Below are positions 37,085 to 49,482 of a stretch of 57,106 bases of DNA, in pieces. Under the pieces are notes generated by a model that saw nothing but the letters and a program-made list of their open reading frames with translations, made no database searches and was not told where the DNA came from. This DNA is from Flavobacteriaceae bacterium (lineage in GTDB: Bacteria; Bacteroidota; Bacteroidia; UKL13-3), in contig SHWZ01000011.1 of the NCBI GenBank assembly GCA_009693575.1, positions 1 through 57,106 of the forward strand. The letters run 5' to 3'. Every line of letters starts with the position of its first letter. Position 1 is the stretch's first letter. The translations under genes were made by a program, and so were the position numbers.

Positions 37085-40000
37085 ATGTTCAACAACTCTA
37101 CCTTTATTTGCAAAGCAAAAACTAGCCTATTACTAGCTTGTTTTATGCTTGCAGGTGTTTGGCTCGGCGGCAACGCTTCAGCTCAGCACTGTACACCAAC
37201 CATGCAAAGCAAATGCTGCAACATGGGAAACAAAAATGTTACTTTTGGTAACAGCATCAACTATACGATAGCGAGTTACAATACTTCTAAAGTGTATTAT
37301 GATGAATATAGCAACGTAAGTGCATGTGTGACTGCTGGAAGCCAACAGCCAATGGCGGTAACTGTGCAAAGTGGAAACTATCCACAAGCTGTTTGCGTGT
37401 GGATAGACTGGAACACCAACAACACGTTTGATGCTGGTGAAATTCAAATGGATACTACCTCCATACCTCAGGGTTCTACATTCTCCGACACCATTGATAT
37501 TCCTAGTGGCCAATCAAGCGGAAACTACCGCATGCGTGTATTGGTGGATTACTACTACTACTATACTAACCAAAATCAATCCTTCAACCCTTGCCAAGGA
37601 TACTACTATGGTGACTTTGTTGACTTCAAGATTACTGTAGTGGGCACTAGCGGACTGGATGTTGGCCTTGACAAAGTATTGCAGCCTTCTGTACTGACTA
37701 TTGGAAACAATAATACCGTTCAGATTGGCTATAAAAACCTTGCGGGCACTACTATTGATTCGTTAAGGGCTGGATACTCGTTCAACGGTGGAAGCCCGGT
37801 GATAGAGAAAATAACCAAGAATGCTGTGGGTAACACGTTGGCTTTGCCTACATGCGAAAAGGAAAGCTACACTTTCAACCAAAAGATAACTATTGCTAAT
37901 GCAGGCAATTATACCTTAAAAGTGTGGGTTAGTCATCCAAACGGCACAGCCCCTGATGACAATAAGAATAACGACACATTAGTTGTAACAGCTTGCACGG
38001 CTCTTAGTGGCACTTATACCATTGATGGAAGTAGTGGATCTTCAGGTACCAACTATACCAATTTTACTGATGCTGTAAAGGCATTGAACCAGTGTGGTAT
38101 AGCGGGGCCAGTGACATTTAATGTTGCAACGGCCACCTATACCGAGAAGGTGTCTATAGGTTCGATTAGCGGTTCTTCGGCAACCAATACTATCACATTC
38201 AAGGGTAAAGATTCAACATGTGAGTTGACCAATTCAACAGGTACAACCTTCGTACTTGACGGAGCTGACTATGTGAATGTTCGTAATATGATGATAACCA
38301 GTTCAGCCACCACTAATGGCGGGGCTGTAAAACTAACTAACCATGCCGACCACAACTTGTTCGACAGTGTATGGATGGTAGCATCTAGCACCAATTACCC
38401 AGTAGTATGTTTTGGTGTAATGGGTGATAACTACTATACCACTGGTGAGTATGGCGACTACAACACTGTATCGAACTCATACCTCGAAGGTGGTTATATT
38501 AATTGCATCTTTAATGGTGATTACAATAAAAAAGCAGTTGGCAACAAGGTTGCTAACTCTACAATTTACAAATGTGCACAGTACTTGATGTTCAACCAAT
38601 ATCAAGATAGTTTTCAAATAATAGATAACATTATTGATGCTAGTACTGCTCAATGGTCTTATTGTATTTATTTGGCTGTTTGTACTGAAGTAGACCTAAT
38701 GCGTAACCAAATAACCGCTAGCTACATGGGGGTTTATGCTTATAACAACGATTACCTTGATATTGTAAACAATAGCCTAGTAAGCAGTGGCTACTATGGC
38801 TTTTACAATTACTACAATGACAATGTAAATGTTTGGCACAATAGTATCCTAAATACCAATTCCGGTGTTGGTGCATATGCTTGGTATCAGTATCAAGGCA
38901 CAGCTCATGATGTGAGAAACAATATTTTTGTAGTTGATGGTACGATATCCTACGCTTTCTATAGCCAAAATGCTGCTCCATTCACGGTAATGGAAGCAAA
39001 TATCTACAGTGCCTTGAATTCGACTAATTATGTATACATGGCCACTGCCTTTGCTAATAAAGCGGCATTAAAAGGTGCGAACAGCTTGAACAATATAATG
39101 TATGATCAATTCCCTAATTGGGTTTCATCGTCAGCTCCTCATAACTTACACCTCACTACTGCCGTGCAGGCTTTGAGTGGTGATGGAACTACTGGAGTAA
39201 CTGATGACGTGGACGGAGATGCTCGTTGCACATTTGCTCCATCTATCGGTTCAGACGAAAGTAAGTTTCCGCTATCTTCTCCCGTTTCAAACTTTACTAT
39301 TCCTGATACTGCCTATTTGAATAGCCCTTTCAACTGCCTTAACTCAGCAGGAGCTAACGATGGAAAAGCATTCGATTGGTTTTTGGATGGTTCAGCTGTT
39401 TCATATAGCACCAACCGCAATATTGTTGTATCCTTTGCGAGCACTGGAGTTCATTGTGTGAAATTGGAAACTAGAAACTGCACGGCTACGCACGATACTA
39501 CCAAATGTGTATTCATCACAACTCCCCCTACTCACCCAGCTGCCGACTTTATAGCTGACAAAAATACCGTTGAACCTAGCGATGAAGTAAGTTTTACAGA
39601 CCTAAGCACAGTAGGCCCTACTACTTGGGATTGGACTATCACTCCTGGAACTTTAGGAGTGGAATGGGATTACACTCAAGGTACATCTAGCAGCAGCCAG
39701 AACCCTTTTGTGACATTCTATACCCCTGGCAAATATGACATCTGCTTGGTATCAAGCAACAGCCAAGGTTCTGATACAGTTTGTAAATCAACATACATAG
39801 AAGTTTTGTCAATTGACATGATGTGTCAAAATGCGGTAAGTTACTCTCCTAAGAATAATTTCTATGATGATGGTGGCAAAGGTGGAAATTATGCATTGAA
39901 TCAAACTTGTACCTTCTTGATTGATCCATGTGCATCTACTGTAACCTTGGACTTCACTAAGTTTCAAATTACTAATAATGTAGCATTCTTAAGAATATTT

Positions 40001-42673
40001 GATGGTACGAGTAACAAAGGCAAAGCTTTCCATAGCGGAAACGGATTTACTGGAACAAGTTCCATTGGACCATTCACCGCTCTTAGTGGCAAAATATACA
40101 TGGAATGGAAATCAGGCGGCTGGGGTGCTCAGTCAGGATGGGAGGCCCAATGGACTTCTACACCTGGTAATATGAGTGCACCTTCATCAGCATTCCTTAC
40201 CAACAAAACAGGTTGGGTTGGTGGAAACCATTCATTTTCTGCCAAGAATTATGACCCTAACACAACCTATGAGTGGACTGATTGCCAAGGCAACAGCTAC
40301 GGATCTGGTCCTAGTTTCGGTTATTCTTTCCAAGCAAATGGCCAATATACAGTATGCTTAACAGCTACCAATTGTGCTGGAACAACTACTACTACTGATA
40401 CTGTGGTTGTATATGCTCCAACCGCTGCTCCAACCGCCAACTTTATGGCTAACGTGTCAAGTAACACTAACCAGTGCAATGTAGCTGCTGCAAATACTAT
40501 CAACATTCAATTTGGCGATACTGTGCAATTACTTGACTTGAGTAACCAAGGTGCTAGTTCATGGGCATGGGATGCTACCCCAAGTGGCAATGTGGTTTGG
40601 ATTGATGCTGTAACCGACCAAAATCCTCGTGTTACATTTAACAAGCTAGGCACATACACTGTGATGCTTGATGCCACCAACGGCATTGGAACAGGAAGCA
40701 TAACGAAGACTAATTTTATACGTGTGTTAGCTCCTTATTGTACTCCTGCAATCTCGCAAACCGTTAGTGATATCGGAATTACCAGAGTGAAAGTTGCCAC
40801 TATTGACAATGCCACCAGCGTAAATCTAGCCGATGGTTTTACAAATTATAGCCGTAGCTTCTCATCGTGTGTTGATAGGGGTGCTAAATACCCAATCACC
40901 GTTGAACGTAGCTCGAACCAAAACCCTATCAACAGAAAAGTTTGGGTTGACTGGAATCAAGATGGCGACTACACTGATGCTGGTGAAACTGTAGCTTCGC
41001 AAGCCTCTACCATGGGCCTTAGCTGGACAGATACTTTGAAAGTGCCTGCCACTGCTACACTTGGAGCTACCCGCATTCGTGTAGGTGTTAGCTTTGGAGG
41101 AAATAGCAATATCTCATGTGGCCCTAATAACTTTGGTGAGTTTGAAGAGTATGGCCTGTTTATTACCGAGGACCTTACCCCTCCAGTTATTACACTTCTT
41201 GGCAAATCAACTGTTTCAATTGAACAGTGCCAAACATATACCGAAGCCGGTGCAACCGCTTTTGATGCCGTTGACGGTGTTGTTTCAGCTACCCTATCTT
41301 CAAACACAGTGAACATGGCTGTTTTGGGTACTTATTATGTAACCTATATCGCAGTTGACGCAGCAGGAAATCAGGCTGTACCTGCTATCAGGACAGTAAT
41401 CGTTACTGCTGACAACATTGGCCCTGTGATTACCCTGAACGGCAGCAACCCAATGAATGTAGATGTGAACACAAGCTACACCGAGCCAGGTGCTTCTGCT
41501 GTTGATGCATGTAGTGGTCAATTGCCAGCTTCTTCACTTACAATAACAGGAAGTGTGAATACTGCAGTGTTGGGAACTTATACCCTTAACTATGATGCAA
41601 ATGACCCAGCTGGAAATCCAGGTGTAACCGTATCTCGTAAAGTGGTTGTGGGCGTATTCACTCCTCCTACCATTACACTTACTGGTACAAACCCACTCAC
41701 ATGGCCTGTAGGCACTGTCTTTGTTGATCCAGGAGCCTCAGCTTCTAGCACTTATTATACTGCAGGACTCACCGTAACAAGTGATGCTGCTACTGCTGTG
41801 AATGCTTACTTACTTGGAACTTATACAGTAACATATAGCTGCACCGACCCTTCAGGAAATACTGGAACTACAACCCGTACCGTGAATGTAACTGATGCAG
41901 TTCCTCCTACCATCAACGTGATTGGCGGAGAAACCCTGACAGTAGAAGCAAAAGCCAGTGGAACTTGGACTGACCTTGGTGCCTATGCAGCTGACAACTA
42001 CTACCCAAGCATCTCAGTAACCCCAAGTGGAAGTGTTGACCTAAGTGTACTTAGCACCGTAGCCAACCCTTACCAAATGATTACCTACACTGCTACGGAT
42101 GGTTCTGGTAACACAACCACCAAAACTCGCTACGTTGAAGTGAAGAAGACCACCAAGCCTGTGATTAACCTTACTAGTACTAAAGTGGTTCACACTCTTC
42201 GTTGGAGGACTTACACCGATGCAGGTGCAAGCACTACAGATACTTACTATCCTTCAGTACAGTTGAACTCTCTTCTGACAAAAACTAACAATGTTGACGT
42301 TCAGAATCCAGGAGTATACACTTATGTGTACCACTTGACAGACCCATCAGGTAACACCGCTGATGACGCAACCCGTATTGTTATTGTTGACGAAAACGTA
42401 GGTATCTCAGGAGTAGACTTGGAGAAAGACGTAACCTTGTTCCCTAACCCAACTACAGGAGTTTTCAATATCACTATGTCTGCCGATGCAAAAGACATTA
42501 GCATAAAAGTGATGAATGCTCTTGGTCAAACCGTGAAAGTGGTTGAAGCCAACAAGGTGAACGGAACAAACTTCTCAGTTGATATGACAGGACACGCAAG
42601 CGGCATGTACTTCGTAGCCATCACCAATGGCGACAATATTACCGTGAAGAAGCTGAAACTGCTCGGAAACTGA
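37085..42673 (+). CDS. giant T9SS adhesin-like protein, paralogue 2
   Basis: An 1862-residue tandem paralogue of the preceding gene with the same domain order: signal peptide (ending GGNASAQ), GEVED (CVWIDWNTNNTFDAGE), CARDB-like, beta-helix-like, PKD-like, CUB-like (FYDDGGKGGNY), PKD-like, second GEVED (VWVDWNQDGDYTDAGE), five DUF5011 repeats, and a T9SS sorting domain from LFPNPTTGVFNITM. The DUF5011 and second GEVED regions are nearly identical in protein to paralogue 1, whereas the sorting domain and the beta-helix differ clearly. A separate A/T-rich leader and terminators on both sides suggest independent transcription. The same surface adhesion role is inferred. Confidence 0.88.
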   Translation: MFNNSTFICKAKTSLLLACFMLAGVWLGGNASAQHCTPTMQSKCCNMGNKNVTFGNSINYTIASYNTSKVYYDEYSNVSACVTAGSQQPMAVTVQSGNYPQAVCVWIDWNTNNTFDAGEIQMDTTSIPQGSTFSDTIDIPSGQSSGNYRMRVLVDYYYYYTNQNQSFNPCQGYYYGDFVDFKITVVGTSGLDVGLDKVLQPSVLTIGNNNTVQIGYKNLAGTTIDSLRAGYSFNGGSPVIEKITKNAVGNTLALPTCEKESYTFNQKITIANAGNYTLKVWVSHPNGTAPDDNKNNDTLVVTACTALSGTYTIDGSSGSSGTNYTNFTDAVKALNQCGIAGPVTFNVATATYTEKVSIGSISGSSATNTITFKGKDSTCELTNSTGTTFVLDGADYVNVRNMMITSSATTNGGAVKLTNHADHNLFDSVWMVASSTNYPVVCFGVMGDNYYTTGEYGDYNTVSNSYLEGGYINCIFNGDYNKKAVGNKVANSTIYKCAQYLMFNQYQDSFQIIDNIIDASTAQWSYCIYLAVCTEVDLMRNQITASYMGVYAYNNDYLDIVNNSLVSSGYYGFYNYYNDNVNVWHNSILNTNSGVGAYAWYQYQGTAHDVRNNIFVVDGTISYAFYSQNAAPFTVMEANIYSALNSTNYVYMATAFANKAALKGANSLNNIMYDQFPNWVSSSAPHNLHLTTAVQALSGDGTTGVTDDVDGDARCTFAPSIGSDESKFPLSSPVSNFTIPDTAYLNSPFNCLNSAGANDGKAFDWFLDGSAVSYSTNRNIVVSFASTGVHCVKLETRNCTATHDTTKCVFITTPPTHPAADFIADKNTVEPSDEVSFTDLSTVGPTTWDWTITPGTLGVEWDYTQGTSSSSQNPFVTFYTPGKYDICLVSSNSQGSDTVCKSTYIEVLSIDMMCQNAVSYSPKNNFYDDGGKGGNYALNQTCTFLIDPCASTVTLDFTKFQITNNVAFLRIFDGTSNKGKAFHSGNGFTGTSSIGPFTALSGKIYMEWKSGGWGAQSGWEAQWTSTPGNMSAPSSAFLTNKTGWVGGNHSFSAKNYDPNTTYEWTDCQGNSYGSGPSFGYSFQANGQYTVCLTATNCAGTTTTTDTVVVYAPTAAPTANFMANVSSNTNQCNVAAANTINIQFGDTVQLLDLSNQGASSWAWDATPSGNVVWIDAVTDQNPRVTFNKLGTYTVMLDATNGIGTGSITKTNFIRVLAPYCTPAISQTVSDIGITRVKVATIDNATSVNLADGFTNYSRSFSSCVDRGAKYPITVERSSNQNPINRKVWVDWNQDGDYTDAGETVASQASTMGLSWTDTLKVPATATLGATRIRVGVSFGGNSNISCGPNNFGEFEEYGLFITEDLTPPVITLLGKSTVSIEQCQTYTEAGATAFDAVDGVVSATLSSNTVNMAVLGTYYVTYIAVDAAGNQAVPAIRTVIVTADNIGPVITLNGSNPMNVDVNTSYTEPGASAVDACSGQLPASSLTITGSVNTAVLGTYTLNYDANDPAGNPGVTVSRKVVVGVFTPPTITLTGTNPLTWPVGTVFVDPGASASSTYYTAGLTVTSDAATAVNAYLLGTYTVTYSCTDPSGNTGTTTRTVNVTDAVPPTINVIGGETLTVEAKASGTWTDLGAYAADNYYPSISVTPSGSVDLSVLSTVANPYQMITYTATDGSGNTTTKTRYVEVKKTTKPVINLTSTKVVHTLRWRTYTDAGASTTDTYYPSVQLNSLLTKTNNVDVQNPGVYTYVYHLTDPSGNTADDATRIVIVDENVGISGVDLEKDVTLFPNPTTGVFNITMSADAKDISIKVMNALGQTVKVVEANKVNGTNFSVDMTGHASGMYFVAITNGDNITVKKLKLLGN

Positions 42674-42779: not shown

Positions 42780-44219
42780 ATGGAATTTAAGAAAGAGATT
42801 AAATTGTTTGATGCAGTGATGCTGGTGGCAGGCACCATGATAGGCTCGGGCATCTTCATTGTGAGTGCCGACATAGCCCGCAACCTTGGCTCAGCTGGCT
42901 GGGTGATGATGGCTTGGGCTTTGGCAGGAATAATAACGATGGCAGGAGCACTCAGCTATGGCGAACTTTCTGGGATGTTTCCGAAAGCTGGCGGACAATA
43001 TGTTTATTTGAAAGAAGCCTACGGTCCTATGCTGGCCTTTCTATATGGTTGGACTTTGTTCTTGGTAATCCAAACGGGGACGATCGCGGCGGTAGGGGTG
43101 GCTTTTGCTAAATTCAGTGGAGTGCTTTGGCCACAGGTGGGCGAGAACAATATCCTGATGGAAACTGGCAGTTGGAAAATGACAGCTGCACAATTGCTGG
43201 CTATTGGACTTACGGTGTTGCTCACTTTCATCAACACCAAAGGAGTACGAAATGGTAAGTGGATACAGAATGTGTTTGGGGTTACCAAAATTGGGGCTTT
43301 GTTTATACTTATTGTGGCAGGACTTACCATAGGTTTCAATCCCGAAATATGGAACTACAATTGGAGCAATGCCTGGAATGCAAAACAGACAACGATGAAC
43401 GGTGAAGGTGTTTCTGCAATCAGCAGTGTGAGTGGCATGGCCTTACCATTTGCAGTGGGCGTGGCTATGGTGGGCAGTCTTTTCAGCAGCGATGCTTGGA
43501 ACAATGTCACCTTTGCAGGGGCCGAGGTGGTGAACCCACAACGAACCATTGGCCGGGCGTTGGCCATCGGCACAGGGCTGGTTACTATAATCTATTTGTT
43601 AGTGAATGTGGTGTACTTGGCCGTGCTACCCTTGGATGGAAACCCAGCAGCAACAGAATATATGCAACGAGGCATAGCCCATGCCCAAAACGACCGCGTA
43701 GGCTTTGCTGCGGCACAAGCCATTGGTGGGGGGGGGCTTGCCATTGCAGTAGCCGTACTGATTATGATTAGCACCTTTGGCTGCCAAAATGGGTGCATCC
43801 TCTCCGGGGCAAGAGTATATTATAGCATGGCAAACGACGGACTCTTTTTCTCCCCACTTAAAAAGCTGAACAAAAATGCAGTACCAGCCAATGCCCTTTG
43901 GCTGCAATGTATCTGGGCTTGCCTGCTTATCCTCAGCGGCAGCTATGGCAACCTGCTCGACTATGTGATGTTTGCAGTCATAGTGTTTTACTTGTTTACT
44001 ATTGCTGGCATCTTTGTTCTTCGTTTCAAGCGGCCCGAACTACCAAGACCCTACAAGGCTTTTGGCTACCCCATCCTACCGGCTTTGTATATTTTGTTGG
44101 CAGGTACGTTCTTGTTTGTACTCTTGGTGAAGAAACCAGAGTACACCCAGCCCGGCCTATTGTTGGTTGCCTTGGGTATCCCGGTCTATTTTCTGTTTAA
44201 GCGGTTTTCGAAGGGGTGA
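42780..44219 (+). CDS. APC-family amino acid permease (LAT/SLC7-like)
   Basis: A 479-residue inner-membrane transporter with 12 predicted helices. The APC substrate motif GTMIGSGIF (18-26) is in TM1, and GALSYGELSGMFPKAGGQYVYLKEAYG (about 56-82) follows TM2. NNVTFAGAEVVNPQRTIGRA in TM6 and beyond and a C-terminal PRPYKAFGYPILP are typical of the LAT branch. It moves amino acids across the inner membrane; specificity is unknown. A run of nine G (43728-43736) encodes three Gly codons inside it. Its stop abuts that of the convergent fusion gene with no bases between. Confidence 0.92.
   Translation: MEFKKEIKLFDAVMLVAGTMIGSGIFIVSADIARNLGSAGWVMMAWALAGIITMAGALSYGELSGMFPKAGGQYVYLKEAYGPMLAFLYGWTLFLVIQTGTIAAVGVAFAKFSGVLWPQVGENNILMETGSWKMTAAQLLAIGLTVLLTFINTKGVRNGKWIQNVFGVTKIGALFILIVAGLTIGFNPEIWNYNWSNAWNAKQTTMNGEGVSAISSVSGMALPFAVGVAMVGSLFSSDAWNNVTFAGAEVVNPQRTIGRALAIGTGLVTIIYLLVNVVYLAVLPLDGNPAATEYMQRGIAHAQNDRVGFAAAQAIGGGGLAIAVAVLIMISTFGCQNGCILSGARVYYSMANDGLFFSPLKKLNKNAVPANALWLQCIWACLLILSGSYGNLLDYVMFAVIVFYLFTIAGIFVLRFKRPELPRPYKAFGYPILPALYILLAGTFLFVLLVKKPEYTQPGLLLVALGIPVYFLFKRFSKG
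43728..43736 (+). repeat. poly-G tract (G9) within the permease gene
   Basis: Nine consecutive G encode three Gly codons of IGGGGLA. Such tracts can slip during replication and are also prone to sequencing error. The frame is intact here. Confidence 0.9.
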
Positions 44220-46154
44220 CTACTCCACATCAAACTTGCTAATCCAGATGCTGCCCTTTTGGCCTTCGTATTTGCCGATGCTGCCTTTTTCCCAAAGGTC
44301 AACCAGTATTTTTCTGGCCTCGTCTTTGGGTATATCGCTGAGGAAGGCAAACTCCATGTCGGTCATGCGGGGGAAGGCGGCAAACAGCTTTTGGGGGATG
44401 GTGTCAATGGCCTTTTTCTGCACATCGGGCATCAGCTTCTGTATTATTTCCTCAAACTTTTCGTATGTCTGATAGCCTTTGATGATATATTGGTTGTTGG
44501 CCCTATTAGAAAAATACAGGGTGGGAAAGTTTGTGACACCAAGCTGTGCGGCCAGGGTTAGGTCTGCTTTGAAATGTTCCTTGGCCCTGCCATCAAAGTC
44601 TCGCAACAGGCGGGCTGAGTCGAGCCCCACTTCGATTGCCGCATTTTTGAGGAACTCCCATTTGATGATATTTTTCTTTTCGACAAACACCATTTCCTTG
44701 ATGCGGCGTAGGAACAGGATGGCCTTGGTGGTGTCCTGCATCTGTGCCGCCTTGAATGCTATGGAGGGCGGGTAGGATGAGTTAAGCGGGTCTTCTATCC
44801 ACACGTCGCCATCAAGCGGCATCTCATGCAAGGCACTCACTTCTTCCCAATGTTTGGCGGCATCGGAGGGCTTTTGTATCTTGCCTTTGTTATATTTTCC
44901 CCACGATGGTAGCAGGCCGCCCATGCAATATTTTATGTTCACATTGTCATCGTATTCTAGTTTTATTTTTCGCAGTGCCGGCTGTATAAGCCAGCAGGTA
45001 GAGCATATCGGGTCGGTAAAATATAAAACCTGAATCTCTTTTTTTACCCCTTCAAGGTCGTAATTTCCGTTCTGTTTTATCAGCGGCACAATTATATTGC
45101 CGTAGTTTTGGCCAACTGAGTCTAGAAACTGTTTTTTGATTTGGCGACCAAAACTTATGTGTGTATTCACCGCATTCGAACGCAGGTCGTAATATTTTTT
45201 GAAAGCTTGCTTATAGTTGTCGGTGATGGACAGGTGGTGGGCAAGGGTGCGGGCATCAAGTATGGCATTGGTGGTGCCCGCACTGGTGAAGGGCAAGGCA
45301 AGGTGAGCAGCATCGCCAATCAGCACCACGTTTTGTTTATGAAAAGTGGGCAGCAGGTCGAAGTCGCGGGTGTTCCATACATAGCTTGTTTTGAAATCGT
45401 TCGTTTCCAAAATTTTGCCCACAACTTCAGGAAACTCGGCCAATATATTCTTGCAGAATACTTCTAATCCCTCGGGAGTTTCGGTAGAAGGGTCGTAGAG
45501 CCTGGCATCGTATTGCATGAACCATACAAACTCAATGTCGGAGGTGGGGATGAGGCCAAAAGCAAGCCCAGCGGTCTTTTTCTTAAACTTGGTAAATATA
45601 TCTGAATGGGTCTTTGACACTTCCTCGTTGTAGGCAATGCCCACTATTTCCTTTACATCCACTGGAGTGAACTTCACAGGGCCAAAAGTCACTTCACGCA
45701 CCTTGGAGTAACCACCATCGGCCCCGATGAATATATCGCCATGCTCCACATCCCCATTTTTGAAAACTGCTGCAATAGCCTTTTCTCCTTCATATAAAAA
45801 GTGAGAAAAATCGCGTCCTTGCTTGATGAATTCATTTGGCAACAAAGCATACAAAAATCGGATAAGTTCGCTCCGCTTGATGCACTTCCAAGTGGGTAGT
45901 TCTAGGTGTTTTATCTCAACTCCTTCTGTGTCCCGCAGGCTGTATCCCCTGATTAACCTACCAGGCAGTTCGGCCTTGTATTCGCTGTTCAGCTCTTTCA
46001 AAATGCCAAGTCCATCCGTGTGCATCATGAATGCATGACCATGTATTGGCATCTCCTCGGCCCGCTCGTTCACCACCACTTCTATATTCCGTTGTTTCAA
46101 AAATATACCTATGGTCAATCCGGCAATTCCACCCCCTATGATTACTACTTTCAT
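44220..46154 (-). CDS. fusion of FAD-dependent monooxygenase and SpxH/DsbA-like thioredoxin domain
   Basis: A 644-residue two-part protein. Residues 1-365 form a PHBH-type flavin monooxygenase: the dinucleotide motif GGGIAG (7-12), an FAD/NADPH-side motif DG in IGADGGYSKVR (144-153), and VVLIGDAAHLALPFTSAGTT (276-294) with the conserved GD at 280-281. From about 372 a thioredoxin-like domain of the SpxH/FrnE (DsbA) type begins: LYFTDPICSTCW with C384-x2-C387, then YCMGGLLPSW, and a cis-Pro-like GVTNFPTLYF near 540-550. A C-terminal helical or winged-helix-like tail follows. The flavin part would hydroxylate a small molecule; the second may act in thiol chemistry or as an adaptor. The fusion is in frame and the aminotransferase stop overlaps its ATG by 4 bp. 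Substrate unknown. Confidence 0.82.
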   Translation of the reverse strand: MKVVIIGGGIAGLTIGIFLKQRNIEVVVNERAEEMPIHGHAFMMHTDGLGILKELNSEYKAELPGRLIRGYSLRDTEGVEIKHLELPTWKCIKRSELIRFLYALLPNEFIKQGRDFSHFLYEGEKAIAAVFKNGDVEHGDIFIGADGGYSKVREVTFGPVKFTPVDVKEIVGIAYNEEVSKTHSDIFTKFKKKTAGLAFGLIPTSDIEFVWFMQYDARLYDPSTETPEGLEVFCKNILAEFPEVVGKILETNDFKTSYVWNTRDFDLLPTFHKQNVVLIGDAAHLALPFTSAGTTNAILDARTLAHHLSITDNYKQAFKKYYDLRSNAVNTHISFGRQIKKQFLDSVGQNYGNIIVPLIKQNGNYDLEGVKKEIQVLYFTDPICSTCWLIQPALRKIKLEYDDNVNIKYCMGGLLPSWGKYNKGKIQKPSDAAKHWEEVSALHEMPLDGDVWIEDPLNSSYPPSIAFKAAQMQDTTKAILFLRRIKEMVFVEKKNIIKWEFLKNAAIEVGLDSARLLRDFDGRAKEHFKADLTLAAQLGVTNFPTLYFSNRANNQYIIKGYQTYEKFEEIIQKLMPDVQKKAIDTIPQKLFAAFPRMTDMEFAFLSDIPKDEARKILVDLWEKGSIGKYEGQKGSIWISKFDVE

Positions 46155-47320
46155 AAAGAATTGATTGTATTTTTTATTCGTGACAATGCTTCCCTAAGTA
46201 TTTCTTCGGATGTGGCAAAACTAAGACGGATATGTCCCTCGGCCCCATTGCCAAACCACTGTTTAAGACCTGGCACTACTGCTACCTTGGCCTCGTTCAG
46301 CAACAGTTCATGAATTTCGGAACCCGACTTTCCAGTCCCTTCAATATTTGCAAAAGCTACATAACATCCATCAGGAGAAATGCAGCGAAAACCGGGAATG
46401 GAGTTGAGTTCATCTACGCATATATCTCGCATGGCTTGCAGGTGTTTCAAAAAGCCATCAAGCCAATACCCACATTGGTTGAGTGCTGTGGTGGCTGCTA
46501 TTTGCGAAAGCACATTGGCTCCATGTATAGTTGAATTATGCAGGGAAGCATCCAACAGTTTGGTATACTGTTCTTTGTTACTCGCCATCACCATGCCGAT
46601 ACGCAAACCCGCCAACCCGTATGATTTGCTGAAACCACTAATGGTCACCGTGCAGTTTCTTATTTCTTTGTTGATGCTGGCAATGCTCACATATTTATTG
46701 GGAACAAAAACAATGTTGCTCCAAATTTCATCAGAAAGGATGATGAGCTTGTGACGGATGGCAATATCACCCAATTGCACTAGTTCTTCTTGGGTGAATA
46801 CTTTGCCGGTTGGATTCAGCGGATTGCACAAGCATATCATTCGCGTTTTTGGGGTAATCAGTTGCTCTAACTTCTCAAAATCAACGGGAGCTGTGCCGGC
46901 AGGTATGGCTAGCGGAACGGCAATGCCACCAACCGATTCGATGGAATAGCGAAAGAGGAAATCAACGGGGTCGAAGATGATGGCTTCATCGCCCGGTGCT
47001 AAAAAAGCTTTACAAGTCAAGTATATCCCAAAGGCAGCACTGTCCACCGGAAATATGAGGTCAGCAGACGTAGGAATATTTCTTTTAGTACGAAAAAAAT
47101 TAGCGAGGCTTTCTTTGCATTCGGGCAGTCCATCGGGCGGTGCATAGCAATAGTAGCGGTCTTTGGCAAAGTTGGCAACGGCCTCGGCTATCTCTGGGGC
47201 ACTCGGAAAGTCAGGGTCGGCAGCAGTAAGTGGGATTACACCCTCAGGCACAGTAGCCCAACGCAGGTTGTAGGCTCGTTTTTTTAGTATAGGTAAGTTG
47301 ACGGAATTGTGTTGGAACAT
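46151..47320 (-). CDS. class I/II PLP aminotransferase
   Basis: A 389-residue fold-type I aminotransferase. It shows LTAADPDFPSAPEI near the start, CLCNPLNPTGKVF (164-176), LSDEIWSNIVF (195-205) and the PLP Lys232 in ISGFSKSYGLAGLRIG (227-242), with the C-terminal Arg in GHIRLSFA. This is the aspartate/aromatic aminotransferase class; the amino acid used is not evident. It is the first gene of an operon with the flavin/thioredoxin fusion (4-bp ATGA overlap), so the two may act on the same compound, for example deamination followed by hydroxylation; that is inference. Confidence 0.9.
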   Translation of the reverse strand: MFQHNSVNLPILKKRAYNLRWATVPEGVIPLTAADPDFPSAPEIAEAVANFAKDRYYCYAPPDGLPECKESLANFFRTKRNIPTSADLIFPVDSAAFGIYLTCKAFLAPGDEAIIFDPVDFLFRYSIESVGGIAVPLAIPAGTAPVDFEKLEQLITPKTRMICLCNPLNPTGKVFTQEELVQLGDIAIRHKLIILSDEIWSNIVFVPNKYVSIASINKEIRNCTVTISGFSKSYGLAGLRIGMVMASNKEQYTKLLDASLHNSTIHGANVLSQIAATTALNQCGYWLDGFLKHLQAMRDICVDELNSIPGFRCISPDGCYVAFANIEGTGKSGSEIHELLLNEAKVAVVPGLKQWFGNGAEGHIRLSFATSEEILREALSRIKNTINSL

Positions 47321-47402: not shown

Positions 47403-47804
47403 CTAATTCAGTTTTGAGAGTAGCTCCACCACCTTATAGGTAACTAATGGCTTAATAAGAAAATCGGAAACCACACGGATGCTTTTAGCCCGCTCAATAT
47501 CGTGAGGCGAAATGCTGGATGTGGTTACATATAAGGCAATGTCTTTTCCCAAGCGAGGCTGCATCTGCATGTATTCTTCCAGAAAAGCCCAGCCATCCAT
47601 TACTGGCATACTCAGGTCAAGAAAAATAATATCGGGAAACAAATCTGCATGACCCACAATTTCTTCAAAATATTCGATGGCCTCCAGCCCGTCATTGAAC
47701 ACTTTGATGTCAGTCAAAAAATTGCTTGCTTCAATCGTTTTCTTAACTAAGAAGACGCTAATTGAATCGTCTTCAATTAGGAAAATTCTTTTGAAAGGTT
47801 TCAT
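47403..47804 (-). CDS. single-domain response regulator
   Basis: A 133-residue receiver domain without an output domain. The acidic pocket is EDD (11-13), the phospho-acceptor Asp63 is in FLDLSMPVMDG, the Thr/Ser switch is in YVTTSS (92-97), and Lys118 is in LIKPL. Its ATG overlaps the PAS kinase stop by 4 bp (ATGA), so it is the cognate partner. Having no DNA-binding domain, it must act by protein contact or phosphotransfer. It is the last gene of the operon. Confidence 0.93.
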   Translation of the reverse strand: MKPFKRIFLIEDDSISVFLVKKTIEASNFLTDIKVFNDGLEAIEYFEEIVGHADLFPDIIFLDLSMPVMDGWAFLEEYMQMQPRLGKDIALYVTTSSISPHDIERAKSIRVVSDFLIKPLVTYKVVELLSKLN

Positions 47805-49255
47805 ATTTTTTGTTTTTTGAATTCGATGAAAAAAGTAGAGCCTTGGTCCGGGGTGCTTTCAGCCCAAATTCTGCCACCCATTGCATCTACCTGTGTTTTG
47901 GTCATGAATAGCCCAATGCCTTTGGCATTTGGATGGCGATGGAAAACTTTACCAATTTTGAATATACTGTCTTTGTGTTTTACTAGGTCAATGCCCAAAC
48001 CATTATCACTTACCGATAATATGATGCTGTCGCCTTCCCTTTTCGACTCCAGCCTAATGAGGGGTGTTCTTACCGGGGATTTGTATTTGAGGGCGTTGCC
48101 CACTAAATTTTGAAATATGCTGTGAAGGTATTTTGATGGAAAATTTATCGAAACTGCATCATAAAAGTTCTTCTCGATGACGCCGCCACATGCTGATATT
48201 TCTAATTCCAGCCCACCTAATGCCCGTTGTAGACAATCCTCGAGTAATATGTCTTCCGAACTTATTTCATGATCTTGCCTTATCTGGATAGATTCCACCA
48301 GCTCGTTGAAGGTGTTGTGTAGGTTATTTATCACTGGGTTTAGTTTCGAAATGAGCAGCTTCTTTTCGTCTTCGTCAGTGCTCTGCTCTATAAAATTTGC
48401 CAGCATTGCCATATTCACTAATGGTGCCCTCAGGTTGTGTGACACTATGTTGCAGAAATCAACTAGTTGCGTGTTTTGGGAAGAAAGTTGATTAAGGATA
48501 GCGGTCTGTTTTTCTTCCAACAGTTTACGTTCCGTAATGTCGATGCCGAAGCCAATCACCATGCTTATTTCCCGCTTCTCGTTGAACACGGGGAACAGCC
48601 TCCGCAGGTGTGTAATTGTGTGGCCATTTGGGTCTTTTATGCTGTCTTCCCAGCGTATTTCCTTGGCCGATTTTTTTATTTCCAAAAACTGCTCCCGCCT
48701 CAATTTGGCTACTGAGTCGTCACGGTTTCGGTATTCAGCATATTCGAAGTCGTCCTTGCCGATGATATACTTCCGGAGTTCCTCGTTTTCGATGGCTTTG
48801 GGGTTCACAAATATGTATTTGTGGTTGGCATCAAACACAGCTATGTCAGTGGGAATGCAGTTGAGAATGTTCTCGTAAAATTCCTTTTGCTTGTCCAGTT
48901 TGTCTCTTACCTGATTACGTTCCGTAATGTCGATGGCAAAACCGATAAGGAACGTTTTGCCGTTGATGGCGGCGTGTGATATACCCAGGTTTATCTCAAA
49001 CTCAGCTAGGTTTTTTCGTTGAGCAACAATTTCCATTGTTTCACTCACAAGTTGGCCTTGGCTACTCTGTTTTATCATCTTCAGGTAAGGCTCGCAGTTG
49101 TGGTCGGGCAGGCATATATTGTGAAAATAACAGCCGATTGCTTCAGTAGCACTCCAACCAAAAATAATCTCAGCTTTTGGATTCCAATGCATGATTACGC
49201 CCAGTTCATCCATTACTATCACCGCATCATTGGTATTGTGAAATAAGGTATCCAT
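47801..49255 (-). CDS. cytoplasmic PAS-domain sensor histidine kinase
   Basis: A 484-residue kinase with no membrane segment. It has two PAS/PAC domains (about 1-115, with DAVIVMDELGVIMHWNPKAE and GFAIDITER; and about 125-245, with GFGIDITER) and an HisKA domain with VSHNLRAPL (His273). The ATPase domain shows N-box FQNLVGNALKYKSP, G1 VSDNGLGIDL, G2 AKGIGLFMTK and a C-terminal GSTFFIEF. The variant HNLRAP box is common in Bacteroidota PAS kinases. The ATG at 49255 overlaps the stop of a small upstream gene by one base (TGATG); a TTG start 3 bp earlier is also possible. It senses a cytoplasmic or redox signal and phosphorylates the adjacent receiver. Confidence 0.92.
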   Translation of the reverse strand: MDTLFHNTNDAVIVMDELGVIMHWNPKAEIIFGWSATEAIGCYFHNICLPDHNCEPYLKMIKQSSQGQLVSETMEIVAQRKNLAEFEINLGISHAAINGKTFLIGFAIDITERNQVRDKLDKQKEFYENILNCIPTDIAVFDANHKYIFVNPKAIENEELRKYIIGKDDFEYAEYRNRDDSVAKLRREQFLEIKKSAKEIRWEDSIKDPNGHTITHLRRLFPVFNEKREISMVIGFGIDITERKLLEEKQTAILNQLSSQNTQLVDFCNIVSHNLRAPLVNMAMLANFIEQSTDEDEKKLLISKLNPVINNLHNTFNELVESIQIRQDHEISSEDILLEDCLQRALGGLELEISACGGVIEKNFYDAVSINFPSKYLHSIFQNLVGNALKYKSPVRTPLIRLESKREGDSIILSVSDNGLGIDLVKHKDSIFKIGKVFHRHPNAKGIGLFMTKTQVDAMGGRIWAESTPDQGSTFFIEFKKQKI

Positions 49256-49482
49256 CAATTGAATATTGTTAGCCCTATCCTTTTCGCCATCAGCATCACT
49301 TGCCTTTGCATCTCAAGCATATCCACCGCTTGCTGTCCCAATACATGAATCCCTTCAATCTGCCTCGGCGTTAAGGTGCGGGGCAAGTTTACCATGTGTT
49401 CCAGGTTGGCCGATGCACGGCTATCAACCATTTGGAGCTGCAATCCCTCAGTTTCAGTTACAAGGTTAGGACTTTCTTTCAT
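49255..49482 (-). CDS. small conserved-looking protein leading the PAS kinase operon
   Basis: A 75-residue protein I do not recognise. It is polar at the N-terminus, then has predicted amphipathic helices: SANLEHMVNLPRTLTPRQIEG and LGQQAVDMLEMQRQVMLMAKRIG. There is no signal peptide or membrane segment. Its TGA overlaps the kinase ATG by one base, and kinase and regulator overlap by 4 bp, so the three are translationally coupled. The tight coupling is the main evidence that it is real. It could be a regulator, adaptor or stabiliser of the kinase. The family is unknown to me. Confidence 0.7.
   Translation of the reverse strand: MKESPNLVTETEGLQLQMVDSRASANLEHMVNLPRTLTPRQIEGIHVLGQQAVDMLEMQRQVMLMAKRIGLTIFN

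Follow-up and report, generated by a model that had tools for sequence, protein, structure and literature searches.

We find that a class A flavin monooxygenase (FMO) and a complete SpxH-type thiol protein are joined in one polypeptide encoded by a Flavobacteriaceae bacterium (Bacteroidota; Bacteroidia; UKL13-3). The gene lies on contig SHWZ01000011.1 of assembly GCA_009693575.1, whose whole 57,106-nucleotide stretch (positions 1 to 57,106, forward strand) is referred to here as the window. Sequence comparison confirms that the fusion is real and conserved, and its gene is coupled to one for a pyridoxal phosphate (PLP) enzyme. In another genus, the same three proteins are encoded by separate neighboring genes, and thus they most likely form one enzyme system. 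We lean, by a modest measure, toward a conserved three-protein module in which SpxH would serve as a thiol-redox partner rather than as an adaptor for the ClpXP protease. The features that carry this argument are as follows (pLDDT, predicted local distance difference test).

44220..46154, minus strand, stop codon counted: FMO-SpxH fusion, 644 amino acids (open frame; Pfam FAD_binding_3 and Thioredoxin_5; 29 full-length homologs)
45090..46154, minus strand: class A flavin adenine dinucleotide (FAD) monooxygenase part, residues 1-355 (Pfam and NCBIfam matches, fold match, invariant motifs)
45045..45071, minus strand: disordered linker, residues 362-370, pLDDT < 50 (AlphaFold model and alignment)
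44220..45044, minus strand: SpxH/YjbH-type half (residues 371-644) bearing C384xxC387 and cis-Pro P544, together with the C-terminal part of YjbH (Thioredoxin_5, phmmer, Foldseek)
46151..47320, minus strand: PLP enzyme of the class I/II aminotransferase / PatB-like C-S lyase superfamily, 389 amino acids (Aminotran_1_2, 3.2 × 10−49; adjacency; 4-base pair (bp) overlap with the fusion)

An earlier note on this DNA, made from the letters alone, had described an unbroken frame joining a FAD hydroxylase to an SpxH/FrnE-like domain, and this description is borne out by the 644-amino acid frame at 44220-46154 (minus strand). Pfam places FAD_binding_3 at residues 2-309 (E = 6.9 × 10−20) and Thioredoxin_5 at residues 378-568 (1.1 × 10−49), so that the two domains which the note had proposed to search for do occur in one chain; DSBA is a weaker match (1 × 10−7). 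The motifs it had listed are all in place (GGGIAG at 7-12, GD at 280-281, C384-x2-C387, MGGLLPSW, and TNFP within TNFPT, at the cis-Pro position P544), together with DG at 146-147. The AlphaFold model of the fusion has a pLDDT of 87 and a predicted template modeling score of 0.70. Our alignment comprises 29 full-length fusion rows (two being copies of others) at 43 to 69% identity. Both halves have preserved their catalytic motifs in these homologs, so the fusion is not an artifact. The same homologs rule out a frameshift or an overlooked stop where the halves join, the flaw that the note had named as able to overturn its claim.

The FMO half falls, by its sequence, among the class A flavoprotein monooxygenases: The GxGxxG, DG and GD motifs are invariant, FAD_binding_3 is matched, and the fold resembles that of p-hydroxybenzoate hydroxylase. 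Residues G7, G9, G12, E30, D146, G147, G280, D281 and P288 do not vary among the 29 aligned fusions. A phmmer search against the Protein Data Bank (PDB) matched the N-terminal part to class A monooxygenases, and Foldseek returned HpxO, TrlE, PhzS, NicC and Tet(X), with template modeling (TM) scores of 0.66 to 0.82 over the target and about 16 to 22% identity. Narrower assignments to Tet(X), HpxO or salicylate hydroxylase were rejected, the NCBIfam cut-offs having been missed (65.6 against 550, 98.6 against 500, and 56.8 against 446 bits, respectively).

The second half scores 169 bits with Thioredoxin_5 (cut-off 27), and phmmer against the PDB matches fusion residues 369-580 to Geobacillus YjbH (SpxH; 6ghb) at E = 6 × 10−36. 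Foldseek aligns it to 6ghb and 6gho with TM scores of 0.91 to 0.92 over nearly the whole target (273 to 278 alignment columns, 27% identity). The fusion therefore contains a complete SpxH, including the stretch that had been taken for a separate winged-helix-like tail; Foldseek places this tail inside YjbH's own C-terminal part. The CxxC pair of the SpxH/YjbH family is present, and C384, C387, P544 and T545 are invariant across the aligned fusions. Three Pedobacter fusions (L011, L013 and L022) additionally end in a C-terminal CxxC (FDCIHCL, FDCLTCQAL and FDCLNCI), which other fusions lack.

With peptide patterns taken from the window itself, a scan of ~85,000 species genomes returned 21 loci, all in Bacteroidota, and it is there only that the fusion was seen. 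Twenty of these loci are full length, and in the remaining one (L021) a contig edge cuts into the gene, so that the locus begins within it. Within the window's order, 11 other genomes carry a near-complete fusion that is free of stops (44 to 69% identity), and in a twelfth, G016, the fusion is cut at a contig end, a recurrence well beyond chance; a draw of 396 genomes across the phylum added the fusion in one other genome. A plasmid search gave no record carrying the full fusion. In a tree of the SpxH part, a single branch (SH-aLRT 100) splits 28 fused from 19 stand-alone sequences, so that one fusion event suffices to explain the clade.

The PLP gene travels with the fusion, as the earlier note had suggested checking: It lies directly upstream in 30 of the 32 fusion loci that have upstream sequence, often with the same 4-bp overlap that the note had reported for the window. 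The two others, L017 and L018, are Chitinophagaceae loci in which the fusion stands with no PLP gene adjoining. Membership of the class I/II superfamily is indicated by Aminotran_1_2 (168.5 bits), the PLP lysine K232 and the substrate arginine R365; K232, N166, D197, R240 and R365 are invariant in 13 relatives. The best NCBIfam score is to PatB (TIGR04350; 224.7 against a cut-off of 340), followed by several aminotransferases, and Foldseek does not separate PatB-type from aminotransferase structures. The enzyme has an aminotransferase-like GLRIG arginine where PatB has GLQAS, and SDEIW for PatB's SDEIH. Assignments as a PatB C-S lyase or as GntC were rejected at their curated cut-offs. Thus, transamination and C-S cleavage cannot be told apart from the scores, and the order of "deaminate, then hydroxylate" proposed in the note is not borne out.

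Two further genes, absent from the earlier note, complete an operon with the PLP gene and the fusion.

47403..47804, minus strand: single-domain response regulator, 133 amino acids (Response_reg, 3.3 × 10−12; conserved upstream of the PLP gene)
47801..49258, minus strand: PAS-PAS histidine kinase, 485 amino acids (PAS and HATPase_c matches)

In the window, kinase and regulator overlap by 4 bp, 82 bp separate the regulator from the PLP gene, and all are on the strand of the fusion. This four-gene arrangement recurs in 14 loci, the window among them. The kinases at the same place in the 13 others are 59 to 68% identical to that of the window; relatives are 502 to 687 amino acids long, the one in Pedobacter locus L007 having an added GAF domain. 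In L005 the regulator is visible near a contig edge. In the deep fusion loci L077, L078 and L079, a TonB-receptor-like gene and a small lipoprotein-like gene precede the PLP gene, replacing kinase and regulator. On the other side of the fusion, an amino acid permease gene (42780-44219, plus strand; AA_permease_2, 4.1 × 10−61) converges on it, its stop codon abutting the fusion end. Farther along, 37085-42673 (plus strand) encodes a repeat-rich secreted protein of 1862 amino acids, the C-terminal end of which resembles a type IX secretion sorting domain. An Rfam scan of the window gave zero matches, and no polyketide or other biosynthetic cluster was seen near the fusion in the neighborhoods examined.

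Genus g17 (family f4, both our labels) has the unfused version. Its separate FMO is 27 to 30% identical to the fused one (about 150 to 165 bits) and is directly followed by a PLP gene whose product is 44 to 46% identical to the window's. We divided the g17 FMOs by identity to the protein of locus L095, subtype B having 58 to 63% (25 genomes) and subtype A 65 to 100% (34 genomes, two in split frames). FMO and PLP genes are adjacent in 20 of the 22 loci first examined and in all 25 subtype B genomes. Ten of 80 g17 genomes have SpxH, FMO and PLP as adjacent co-directional genes, with SpxH upstream, match-to-match gaps of 7 to 33 bp between SpxH and FMO, and, where checked, 51% identity between the linked SpxH and the window's SpxH half. 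SpxH is found in all 25 subtype B genomes (linked only in 8, unlinked only in 15, both in 2), against 4 of the 55 others (1 of 34 with subtype A and 3 of the remaining 21). This co-occurrence has a Fisher P of 6.5 × 10−17, a value to be read with the shared ancestry of the genomes in mind, the lineages not being independent. By the FMO tree, linked SpxH was lost about twice, and both lineages concerned hold an unlinked SpxH. The alignments show two intact catalytic halves, each highly conserved among the fusions, and the neighborhoods show that the linkage of the three proteins holds whether or not two of them are fused.

The slot upstream of the FMO is filled, in most of the subtype A loci examined, by a tryptophanase gene (NF053783, cut-off exceeded in L095). 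It lies at L095:3978-5351, and in the same slot in L094, L132-L137, L147 and L148, between a DUF502-like gene and the FMO, exactly where SpxH is found in the other subtype. A role for the module in tryptophan or indole metabolism was rejected, as this neighbor is confined to one g17 FMO subtype and was beside no fusion examined.

Stand-alone SpxH proteins have a second cysteine pair. All 31 of those checked have a CX6C motif (C[DN]xxxGxC) ahead of the thioredoxin part, for example, NPLLCDPETGVCE; in two more distantly related proteins, the motif is located at the very C-terminal end. None of the 29 fusions has CX6C, and none has any cysteine between residues 343 and 380, so the second pair of a FrnE-type protein is missing there. 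The CX6C pair probably regenerates the CxxC, because the C-terminal CX4C of Deinococcus radiodurans FrnE, which touches the CxxC of another molecule, is proposed to do so (PMC8945050); in the fusion, the FMO would occupy its position. With that pair gone, some other route must reset the CxxC, and the flavin domain is one possible source. The genes for stand-alone SpxH were found beside HxlR-family regulators in 12 of the 17 cases first examined (the HxlR domain was confirmed in L087). For more distant relatives, the neighbor was a manganese catalase or a glutathione-S-transferase-domain gene. Such neighbors suggest a response to thiol or electrophile stress. Many of these proteins (L081-L093, L099, L138-L143, L153-L172) begin with a lipoprotein-like or hydrophobic stretch and have an internal methionine just before the conserved NPLLCD motif, so that it is uncertain where they start and where they are located. 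On a Halobellus limi plasmid (L109:3965-5784), a haloarchaeal gene for an SpxH-like protein of the DsbA family overlaps one whose product has a glutathione S-transferase C-terminal domain.

The exchange of CX6C (31 of 31 stand-alone proteins) for an FMO at the same end (29 of 29 fusions) would also fit a flavin-driven disulfide reductase, in which electrons pass from NADPH through FAD to the CxxC of the SpxH half and the FMO fold is no longer mainly an oxygenase. Flavoprotein-thioredoxin fusions are an established arrangement, as in the thioredoxin reductase-thioredoxin of Mycobacterium leprae. However, no conserved cysteine pair is seen in the FMO half, the class A motifs are conserved as they are in oxygenases, and the trio with the PLP enzyme points to small-molecule chemistry; of the explanations considered here, we hold this one the least probable.

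We favor instead the module with SpxH as thiol-redox partner. With NADPH and O2, the FMO half would hydroxylate a small molecule, most probably an aromatic or amino acid-derived one, and the PLP enzyme would act on its precursor or product by transamination or C-S bond cleavage. The CxxC of the SpxH half would handle the thiols or disulfides of that reaction, whether on a substrate conjugate, an electrophilic product or the enzyme itself, while the kinase and regulator may couple the module to a redox or metabolite signal in the cytoplasm. A more specific and quite tentative version is that the flavin oxygenase depends on an SpxH-type dithiol partner of its own, whether in the same chain or not, together with the PLP enzyme. 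The chemistry could, for example, be the addition, exchange or removal of sulfur on an oxidized small molecule, and the flavin domain would stand in for the CX6C relay by supplying or accepting electrons for the CxxC. Gliotoxin and tropodithietic acid offer a parallel, which we take as a lead only: There, an oxygenase, a thioredoxin-fold protein and a C-S lyase take part in sulfur incorporation. The small-molecule pathway suggested in the note thus survives in part, with its PLP coupling, its thiol site in the same chain and the idea of a module, strengthened by the unfused trio of g17; the polyketide setting it invoked finds no sign in the neighborhoods.

Several observations weigh against the module. 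None of 20 genomes with SpxH alone has such an FMO (E ≤ 1 × 10−15), in a search that had no positive control of its own, although elsewhere a search with the full fusion recovered g17 FMOs at about 1 × 10−43; with one exception, these genomes also lack such a PLP gene. Subtype A FMOs almost always occur without SpxH, so not every such FMO needs it. Furthermore, the co-occurrence of FMO and SpxH rests on few independent events, and the PLP enzyme falls under every curated subfamily cut-off, so the pathway may run in either direction. Two uncoupled activities co-expressed on one chain, hydroxylation by the FMO and general thiol protection by SpxH, would accommodate the stand-alone SpxH genomes, the FMO-PLP pairs without SpxH and the flexible disordered linker. 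This is nevertheless improbable in our judgment, as three genetic solutions (fusion, operon and unlinked partner) hold SpxH with such an FMO.

The note's own alternative, an adaptor role, we regard as unlikely, if a little less so than uncoupled activities. The SpxH half would deliver a regulator, or its FMO or PLP partner, to ClpXP, or sense stress by aggregation, with the FMO as an attached sensor or effector. The whole YjbH fold is retained with its C-terminal part, one relative is annotated as "ClpXP adapter SpxH family protein," the operon has a kinase and response regulator, and stand-alone SpxH genes adjoin HxlR regulators, all of which agree with such a role. Yet YjbH recognizes the C-terminal tail of Spx, in the account of Chan et al. 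given in PMC7016130, and the only ArsC/Spx-family match in this genome (92% complete), a protein of about 115 amino acids with a CSTC motif, has no such tail. CxxC and cis-Pro are invariant in the fusions, and the CxxC is required for the function of Listeria YjbH (PMC7253607). SpxH occurrence in g17 follows the FMO subtype, and one would expect an adaptor that is part of an enzyme chain to carry that enzyme to the protease. Because of the missing tail, the need for CxxC in Listeria and the co-occurrence with the FMO, a role as enzyme partner is more likely than one as an Spx adaptor, although clients other than Spx may exist.

A literature search for the fusion, or for its NCBI name in Bacteroidota, found nothing relevant, and the fusion, within what is most likely a three-protein enzyme system of known parts, is not described in the literature searched. 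In Firmicutes, SpxH/YjbH is familiar as an adaptor for proteolysis. Its conserved partnership and fusion with an FMO and a PLP enzyme in Bacteroidota suggests a separate enzymatic job for the fold, and the "ClpXP adapter" label may mislead for such proteins. If true, the dithiol-partner reading would extend the SpxH fold to enzymatic work unconnected with proteolysis. The unfused operon is a clean genetic handle on the mutual dependence of the parts, and the exchange of CX6C for an FMO bears on how the CxxC is reset.

Compared with SpxH/YjbH, the ClpXP adaptor of Firmicutes (Geobacillus 6ghb/6gho), the window protein has the same whole fold and a CxxC in the same place. It differs in following an FMO within the same chain, in sharing an operon with PLP enzyme and kinase genes, and in belonging to a genome whose ArsC-family protein lacks the canonical Spx tail. 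FrnE, a cytoplasmic DsbA-family thiol oxidoreductase, is likewise a DsbA-superfamily CxxC protein, and the stand-alone Bacteroidota relatives, like D. radiodurans FrnE with its CX4C, bear an extra terminal cysteine pair. However, the best structure match of the window's SpxH half is YjbH, the extra pair of the stand-alone proteins is CX6C and mostly N-terminal, and the fusion has none. The PLP enzyme shares the fold type I of Bacillus subtilis PatB (6qp3) and of the Clostridioides difficile (4dgt) and Pyrococcus (1gd9) structures, but differs from PatB in scoring below the 340 cut-off and in its GLRIG arginine in place of GLQAS. With HpxO, TrlE, PhzS, NicC and Tet(X), the FMO half has the GxGxxG, DG and GD motifs and the fold in common, whereas the attached SpxH, the low identity and the missed subfamily cut-offs distinguish it. 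Phenol hydroxylase and the PgaE/RdmE group are class A FMOs that likewise continue, in one chain, into a thioredoxin-fold domain at the C terminus. To our knowledge, that domain is without an active CxxC and is not SpxH; the invariant CxxC and cis-Pro of the window fusion set it apart from these enzymes as generally described.

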